This document shows, one piece after another, positions 6,996 to 8,520 of a stretch of DNA of 33,909 bases (the stretch's first letter is position 1; every line of letters starts with the position of its first letter). Below the pieces are notes generated by a model that was given only the letters and a program-made list of their open reading frames with translations, ran no database searches and was not told where the DNA came from. This DNA is from Bacilli bacterium (GTDB taxonomy: Bacteria > Bacillota_I > Bacilli_A > RFN20 > CAG-826). The translations under genes and the position numbers were made by a program. The stretch spans positions 1-33,909 of the forward strand of contig JAIKYF010000031.1 of the NCBI GenBank assembly GCA_024683495.1. Direction: 5' to 3'.

Positions 6996-7823
6996 ATGTT
7001 AGAAAGACTCAGAAAACCAATTTTAATCATCTCCATCATCCTCATTTGGCTGATGAATATTATCCTTTTCTATATTCGGTATCCTTCCATTAACTTCGCG
7101 AGTTTATTTGATTTTGCTGATCTTTCGGAGACGGGATTGCTTGAGTTGCTGAACGCTTACGCCCTTATTGGGAATGCGATACTGATCTTGCTATTAGGGA
7201 TCTTGAGCATCATTTTCTCGCGACCCCGCTTTGGGAAAACCCCGCAAGTTCTCTTCACCATCGCCTTGATTTTATTGATTGGTCAGTTCCTTGGTCCGAA
7301 TTATTTCATGAATGTCCTCAGCTGGGATATCGCTTATTTATTTGAATCTATCGATATTTTTAAAAAACTCTTCCATATATTTATATGCCCATATCTATGG
7401 TTTTTAGGGATCACGGCCTTCCTAGTCTCCATCTTCTTTATTAGATTTAGCTTTGGGAAAATCCTCAATATCATCGCCAAAATCTATGTCATGGCCTTAT
7501 GCGCGGGGATCGTCACGTCCATGACTATGATGATTATCGCCTCTAATGGAAGCGAGAGTCTTCAGATGCCAACCTTATATCTTGCTTCTCTTTTGTTCGT
7601 CATCATGTTCATTAATCTCTTCTTGATGGGCCACAACGAATATTATGCGACCAACATCGTCTTTGAACGGGAGGAGGAGCCAGAGCCAATTAAGGTGACG
7701 ACGGTCAAAAAGACGATGAGCAAAAAAGCCCCGGTCAAGACCGACCCAGTTCCTGTTCCGAATATCCTCTTTGGGCAGAAGATCCCGGCATATTATCTAG
7801 CAGAGGATGAAGAAGTCATCTAA
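6996..7823 (+). CDS. Polytopic membrane protein of unknown function
   Basis: 275 aa with several hydrophobic segments (PILIISIILIWLMNIILFYI, AILILLLGILSIIF, ILNIIAKIYVMALCAGIVTSMTMMIIA) and a basic C-terminal tail; flanked by its own terminator. Confidence 0.8.
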   Translation: MLERLRKPILIISIILIWLMNIILFYIRYPSINFASLFDFADLSETGLLELLNAYALIGNAILILLLGILSIIFSRPRFGKTPQVLFTIALILLIGQFLGPNYFMNVLSWDIAYLFESIDIFKKLFHIFICPYLWFLGITAFLVSIFFIRFSFGKILNIIAKIYVMALCAGIVTSMTMMIIASNGSESLQMPTLYLASLLFVIMFINLFLMGHNEYYATNIVFEREEEPEPIKVTTVKKTMSKKAPVKTDPVPVPNILFGQKIPAYYLAEDEEVI

Positions 7824-7845
7824 GACCCCGTTCAAGGGTCTTTTT
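7822..7845 (+). terminator. Intrinsic terminator
   Basis: AAGACCC-cgttcaa-GGGTCTT followed by a T run; overlaps the stop codon region of the membrane protein gene. Confidence 0.75.
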
Positions 7846-7850
7846 CAATG

Positions 7851-7963
7851 TTCGAAAGCGAAAAACTTTTTTGCTTTTTTATAGGAGAAATTAGCTAAAG
7901 AAGCAGGGGAGCAAACCCCTATAAAAAAGAAGAGAATTCATCGCTCAAAAAAGTTTTTTCGAA
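7851..7963. repeat. Nested inverted repeats / A-tract element upstream of str promoter
   Basis: Outer arms CGAAAAACTTTTTTG (7859-7873) and CAAAAAAGTTTTTTCG (7946-7961); immediately inside, perfect 12-bp arms CTTTTTTATAGG (7874-7885) and CCTATAAAAAAG (7918-7929); inner GGGG-agcaaa-CCCC (7906-7919). Confidence 0.7.
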
Positions 7964-7968
7964 TGTTG

Positions 7969-7997
7969 TTGACAGGTGGTTTATATAAGTATAAACT
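7969..7997 (+). promoter_or_regulatory. Predicted str operon promoter
   Basis: TTGACA (7969-7974), 17-bp spacer, TAAACT (7992-7997). Confidence 0.75.
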
Positions 7998-8007
7998 TTC
8001 GTTCGGA

Positions 8008-8071
8008 CGTAACTAAAAGGCATTTTGCCATTTTAATTTACGGACTGGTTGACACACTGGGATATGTGTGT
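8008..8071 (+). promoter_or_regulatory. Structured 5' leader of rpsL (two predicted hairpins)
   Basis: Hairpin 1: CGTAA ct AAAAGGCA ttt TGCC a TTTT aat TTACG (8008-8042). Hairpin 2: ACACAC-tgggatat-GTGTGT (8052-8071). RBS aaaggag follows at about 8081. Confidence 0.5.
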
Positions 8072-8100: not shown

Positions 8101-8520
8101 ATGCCAACGATAAACCAATTAGTCAGATCCGGCAGAAAGACTTCCGTTAAGAAGTCGAAGACTCCGGCTCTTGGCAAAAGATGGAATTCTTTGACCAAGA
8201 GAAGCAGCAATCAGCCATCTTCACAGAAAAGAGGCGTTTGCACCCGTGTCGGGACGATGACCCCGAAAAAGCCAAACTCGGCTTTAAGAAAGTACGCTCG
8301 TGTCCGCTTATCTAACGGTTACGAAGTCACCGCCTACATCGGTGGTGAGGGACATAACCTCCAAGAGCACAGCACCGTCATGATTCGTGGCGGCCGTGTC
8401 AAGGACCTCCCAGGCGTTCGTTATCACATCATCCGTGGTACTTTGGACTGCGGTGGAATCGAAGCTAGAAGACAGGGAAGAAGCCTCTACGGCACCAAGA
8501 AACCTGCCCCAGCTAAGTAA
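8101..8520 (+). CDS. rpsL: 30S ribosomal protein S12
   Basis: [13 protein letters not shown]... [23 protein letters not shown]... [20 protein letters not shown] 8101 is preferred over the GTG at 8068 because of the canonical MPTINQL start and aaaggag RBS. Confidence 0.97.

Follow-up and report, generated by a model that had tools for sequence, protein, structure and literature searches.

What is a long, A/T-rich inverted repeat doing directly upstream of the promoter that opens the str operon, and does its palindromic shape matter in itself? The question is raised by the window analysed here (the whole stretch of 33,909 nucleotides), which is contig 41 of a 1.59-Mb genome assembled in 172 contigs and 85% complete. 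The gene order in the window is rpoB, rpoC, a 275-aa gene, rpsL, rpsG, fusA and tuf, and the closest relatives of its rpsL in named genomes are Bacilli/Erysipelotrichales-like MAGs.

Architecture of the palindrome upstream of rpsL

Between the 275-aa gene and rpsL, we located the following features:

7822-7845, plus strand: intrinsic terminator of the 275-aa gene, AAGACCC-N7-GGGTCTT-TTT (fold -9.2 kcal/mol, z -2.8)
7846-7885, no strand assigned: left arm of the palindrome, CAATGTTCGAAAGCGAAAAACTTTTTTGCTTTTTTATAGG (inverted-repeat search, folds)
7886-7917, no strand assigned: central spacer with an inner GGGG/CCCC hairpin (sequence, folds)
7918-7968, no strand assigned: right arm of the palindrome, interrupted by a 16-nt bulge at 7930-7945 (inverted-repeat search, folds)
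7969-7997, plus strand: str-operon promoter of the sigma-A type, TTGACA-17-TAAACT (aligned counterpart in congeners)
8101-8520, plus strand: rpsL (S12; Pfam PF00164), which opens rpsL-rpsG-fusA-tuf

The initial annotation had described nested inverted repeats at 7851-7963, between a terminator and the str promoter, and the sequence is as stated there. Two pairs of perfect arms are present, one of 13 bp (7861-7873/7946-7958) and one of 12 bp (7874-7885/7918-7929); on the left the two arms are contiguous, while on the right they are separated by 16 nt (7930-7945). Beyond a 5-nt bulge, AAGCG, the repeat extends outwards as CAATGTTCGA (7846-7855) paired with TCGAATGTTG (7959-7968), with 2 mismatches, so that the whole imperfect inverted repeat comprises about 37 bp (7846-7885/7918-7968) with bulges of 5 nt and 16 nt. 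On its 5' side the terminator stem (7822-7842) lies just before the palindrome. On its 3' side the repeat is longer than annotated: it reaches TTGACA at 7969, where the annotated element ended 7 bp before that -35 box. The inner hairpin of GGGG (7906-7909) with CCCC (7916-7919) is present as claimed, C7918-C7919 are common to this hairpin and to the 12-bp stem, and the palindrome lies outside ORFs, none of at least 60 aa overlapping it.

The nested arms are not expected by chance

Dinucleotide shuffles of the sequence contained one arm of at least 12 bp in 50 of 8000 cases and two nested arms of at least 12 bp in none (0/8000), by which a chance origin of the nested arms is ruled out. The fold of the palindrome has a z-score of -3.6 as RNA (-3.5 for the other strand) and of -4.8 as single-stranded DNA, and none of 200 shuffles folded as stably. 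Genome-wide comparisons rest on a 659-kb sample of the 1.59-Mb genome; in this sample the GC-corrected fold stability of the palindrome ranks 199-234 among 15,219 windows, i.e., within the top ~1.5%.

The same 659 kb contain one other nested pair of arms of at least 12 bp, at L221 4952-5083 (contig 79 of the same genome), with perfect repeats of 14 and 12 bp around a further hairpin. This pair lies in a gene-flanking spacer and ranks second in the sample by GC-corrected fold strength; we considered it as possible kin of the rpsL palindrome and rejected it as a strong gene-flanking hairpin of another kind. The strongest GC-corrected fold in the sample is at L222 ~8119-8241 (contig 80), with z about -6.3 to -6.9.

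The palindrome is private to one genome and probably young

The palindrome was absent upstream of rpsL from all 29 congeners with readable upstream DNA, and no arms longer than 10 bp were found in congeners within 125 nt before the predicted -35 box; for two of them, G022 and G010, our script did not detect the promoter pattern and the upstream DNA was inspected by eye only. Homology to G005, G024 and G014 begins near the -10 region, and promoter and leader are common to the congeners. No second copy was found in the palindrome's own genome (85% complete), no full-length match in a further 278 genomes from the order, and no match in phages or plasmids. Partial matches of 20-44 nt in the order genomes were set aside as AT-rich chance, none of them spanning the element. 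The initial annotation had pointed to conservation or compensatory changes in relatives as one of the deciding observations, and we found neither. With no homologue in congeners, own genome, order genomes, phages or plasmids, the palindrome is, as far as sequence comparison reaches, young or lineage-specific.

The surroundings of the palindrome have a similar character. The 275-aa gene (6996-7823), which encodes a probable membrane protein and sits between rpoC and rpsL, has zero Pfam or NCBIfam matches, and a relative sought in 36 congeners was not found, so that the palindrome's spacer trails a gene and terminator private to this genome. The rpoC-rpsL junction of other congeners holds different genes or none, which marks it as a spot of gene gain.

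Two routes could have produced such a recent palindrome. Most likely its shape would be the by-product of a template-switch (quasi-palindrome) inverted duplication; template switching makes long perfect stems in a single event (PMC8794818), and the palindromic form therefore needs no function of its own. Like known quasi-palindromes, the repeat is long and imperfect yet recent, with a near-perfect stem of which one arm is contiguous and the other interrupted; here, however, the parental sequence that would place the switch points is kept in no relative, and the mode of origin is our inference. We also asked whether the right arm was inherited from the congeners' conserved block before the -35 box, TCAAAA..TTCGATG: plausible by eye, this derivation failed the shuffle test, the match being no better than that of shuffles (p 0.35).

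The less likely alternative origin is that a lone element bounded by terminal inverted repeats inserted here. A rival reading takes the palindrome as the functionless remnant of such an event, a short MITE-like mobile element of 109 bp (7853-7961) whose ends would be the inverted repeats CGAAAAAACTTTTTTG and whose target duplication would be the 6-bp AATGTT. The direct repeat AATGTT (7847-7852 and 7962-7967) does bracket these arms exactly; like MITE-like elements, the palindrome is intergenic with TIR-like ends, no relative carries it, and the equally unique 275-aa gene next to it identifies the spacer as a place of recent gain. The duplication, however, can also be read as the inverted repeat continuing outwards (CAAYRTTCGA), with the direct repeat as part of it, and by our own estimate a 6-bp flanking match is a ~1% event given free choice of ends. 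MITE-like elements differ further in that this one is single-copy, even in its own genome (85% complete), and that no related transposase ends were found; TIR-like matches in congeners were single, had one mismatch and stayed at background level, and phages and plasmids gave no match. A repeated or mobile element, for which own genome, genus, order, phages and plasmids yield no second copy, is thus rejected as the main reading and retained as a weaker rival, which we regard as doubtful.

Position and fold argue against an RNA switch, a terminator and a cruciform

Because the palindrome precedes the sole recognisable promoter and follows a terminator, a transcribed switch is unlikely: no plus-strand promoter was predicted upstream of the palindrome, the sigma-A-like one at 7969-7997 being the only one nearby. 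Such a switch would have to rely on read-through past the terminator or on a promoter that the scan misses. A structured RNA or riboswitch whose GGGG/CCCC and 12-bp stems exclude each other had been suggested on account of C7918-C7919, which do belong to both stems, and the RNA fold z of -3.6 speaks for it. Yet this stability places the element no higher than within the top 1.5% of windows, an Rfam search of the palindrome gave nothing at the gathering threshold and sub-threshold chance matches only (the top match scoring 19 bits where 117 are required), and with no homologue in 29 congeners or 278 order genomes there is no covariation to measure. For want of an upstream promoter, of homologues and of Rfam support, we rejected the RNA switch as highly improbable.

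The initial annotation had also held that the element is not a simple terminator, and indeed a G+C-rich stem with a short loop and a U-run is not what the sequence offers. A bidirectional terminator or insulator, in which the AT-rich stem and T5-T6 on either strand would halt read-through that enters or leaves the str promoter, could draw on the U5-U6 run that follows the inner 20-bp stem on both strands and on the stable folds of both (z -3.6 and -3.5). The stem, however, is almost wholly A-U and the loop large, the sole entry of a terminator scan here is the inner GGGG/CCCC hairpin, weak and on the minus strand, and a good terminator already stands 5' of the palindrome, which leaves this function unlikely.

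Could the dyad instead be recognised as DNA, with a dimeric regulator or cruciform extrusion controlling str transcription in this species? It is long, adjoins the -35 box, folds stably as single-stranded DNA (z -4.8) and occupies the place of the congeners' conserved motif. It is also single-copy, without conservation and without a regulon, its arms are low-complexity A/T tracts, and on general knowledge extrusion is disfavoured by the 32-nt central spacer and the asymmetric bulges, so that we consider a protein-binding palindrome or cruciform quite improbable. A stronger form of the idea, in which the palindrome has replaced an upstream regulatory site found 23 nt before the -35 box in most congeners and acts on the str operon as a dyad operator or as a cruciform that responds to supercoiling, appears very unlikely; if true, control of the ribosomal operon would have been rewired in this species.

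The promoter-proximal arm is a candidate UP element

The promoter-proximal arm and its flank contain one further feature:

7945-7966, plus strand: candidate UP element, TCAAAAAAGTTTTTTCGAATGT (about -59 to -38; 12 of 14 consensus positions)

The proximal arm itself, TCAAAAAAGTTTTTTCG (A6-G-T6), spans roughly positions -59 to -43 relative to the predicted start, and the distance of the UP match from TTGACA equals the expected spacing. Right arm and flank agree at 12 of 14 positions with the UP consensus NNAAAWWTWTTTTNNNAAANNN, which derives from E. coli; the consensus has been published as AAAWWTWTTTTNNNAAA (PMC2412878) and in a second form as NNAAAWWTWTTTTNNAAAANNN (PMC5664571), against which the right arm matches 11 of 15 positions, counted by hand. 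Of the 32 strong promoters examined in the 659-kb sample, none attains 12/14; of 3000 random genome positions, one does (about 0.03%). The congeners score 4-10. The predicted curvature, computed with a wedge table, is strong over 21-31 bp, reaching the genome's top 0.03% over 31 bp, and cancels out over 110 bp.

The partner for such an element is encoded in the same genome, whose RpoA has a full alpha-CTD (PF03118, E 2.5e-27) with the motifs RSNNC and NLGKKS. RSNNC corresponds to E. coli R265, N268 and C269, and NLGKKS to G296, K298 and S299, the residues that contact UP DNA in E. coli. Spacing, near-consensus right arm, local curvature and alpha-CTD residues agree in supporting, as a candidate, the curved-DNA/UP-type activating element that had been proposed here, the sole one of the three proposals to gain support. 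The near arm A6-G-T6 would serve as an ordinary UP element, or A-tract site, for alpha-CTD, whose binding would raise transcription of the str operon. UP activity is thus a prediction from position, consensus match and alpha-CTD residues. As in UP elements of bacterial sigma-70/sigma-A promoters, the match spans -59 to -38 with an A-tract followed by a T-tract in the distal subsite, stands before a strong ribosomal promoter and coincides with kept alpha-CTD contact residues in the host; the proximal subsite (-46 to -38) is matched in part only. Unlike in a typical UP element, this A/T tract forms an arm of an inverted repeat of 37 bp whose other, distal arm is A5CT6, although UP function needs no such two-armed A-tract symmetry. 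AT-rich DNA upstream of promoters is, moreover, common in this genome (AT 0.58-0.70), which weakens the UP reading. Taken with the evidence on origin, we favour with moderate confidence a lineage-specific palindrome whose near arm is an ordinary UP element and whose shape is a by-product of its origin and not a selected RNA or cruciform.

An rpsL-specific leader motif is conserved across the family

Downstream of the promoter, the comparison with congeners revealed two features that are separate from the palindrome:

8011-8052, plus strand: rpsL leader hairpin, terminator-like, U-rich on its 3' side (congeners have equivalent ones)
8049-8068, plus strand: rpsL-specific motif TTGAYACRCNNGGNNNYGTG, here TTGACACACTGGGATATGTG (a single site, in the rpsL leader; family-wide)

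In 37 genus genomes we counted 20 exact occurrences of the TTGAYACRCNNGGNNNYGTG motif, each placed at rpsL by its position; in 224 family genomes there are 62 sites, spread over 61 genomes. The reversed control pattern has none in either set. At the loci inspected outside the genus, rpsL lies within 1.5 kb in 29 of 30, and most of these motifs are in sense orientation 35-70 nt 5' of the start codon (example homologous sites: L225, L242 and L261-L290). In part of the genus the motif instead lies in reverse orientation, ~23 nt 5' of the -35 box; G005, G007 and G048 have both the leader and the upstream copy, and a few other genera (L264, L265, L272, L273, L279) combine an upstream copy with a leader variant. 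The occurrence of both orientations argues for recognition as DNA, whereas the regular position in the leader argues for recognition as RNA.

The rpsL leader opens with a conserved CGGACG followed by a long hairpin. The hairpin with its U-rich 3' side is kept in most members, with differing stem sequences; MAFFT-based consensus folding misaligned it, and we claim no covariation statistic. No Rfam family matches the leader or the TTGAYACRCNNGGNNNYGTG motif, and we found no description of the motif in the literature. Leaders of rpsL are already known as attenuators that vary (PMC2965389), and no S12 leader is listed in the main text of a survey from 2020 that reports novel ribosomal leaders (PMC7247131). 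Like those attenuators, the present locus has a structured leader before rpsL in the same operon, but the palindrome at 7851-7963 is 5' of the promoter, and the leader-like structure is the one at 8011-8068, which we regard as a candidate attenuator of this Bacilli family. By sequence comparison, then, the truly conserved rpsL-specific element is the downstream leader hairpin with TTGAYACRCNNGGNNNYGTG, not the palindrome.

Implications

The palindrome was correctly seen, is not due to chance, is lineage-specific and is most simply explained by known things. Taken alone, it offers an exceptionally clean case of a young palindrome next to a ribosomal promoter, its near arm probably an ordinary UP element. 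The comparison that it prompted matters more, for it brought out a leader motif found almost only at rpsL, sometimes with a second copy 5' of the promoter, which could make control of the str operon testable in a group besides E. coli.
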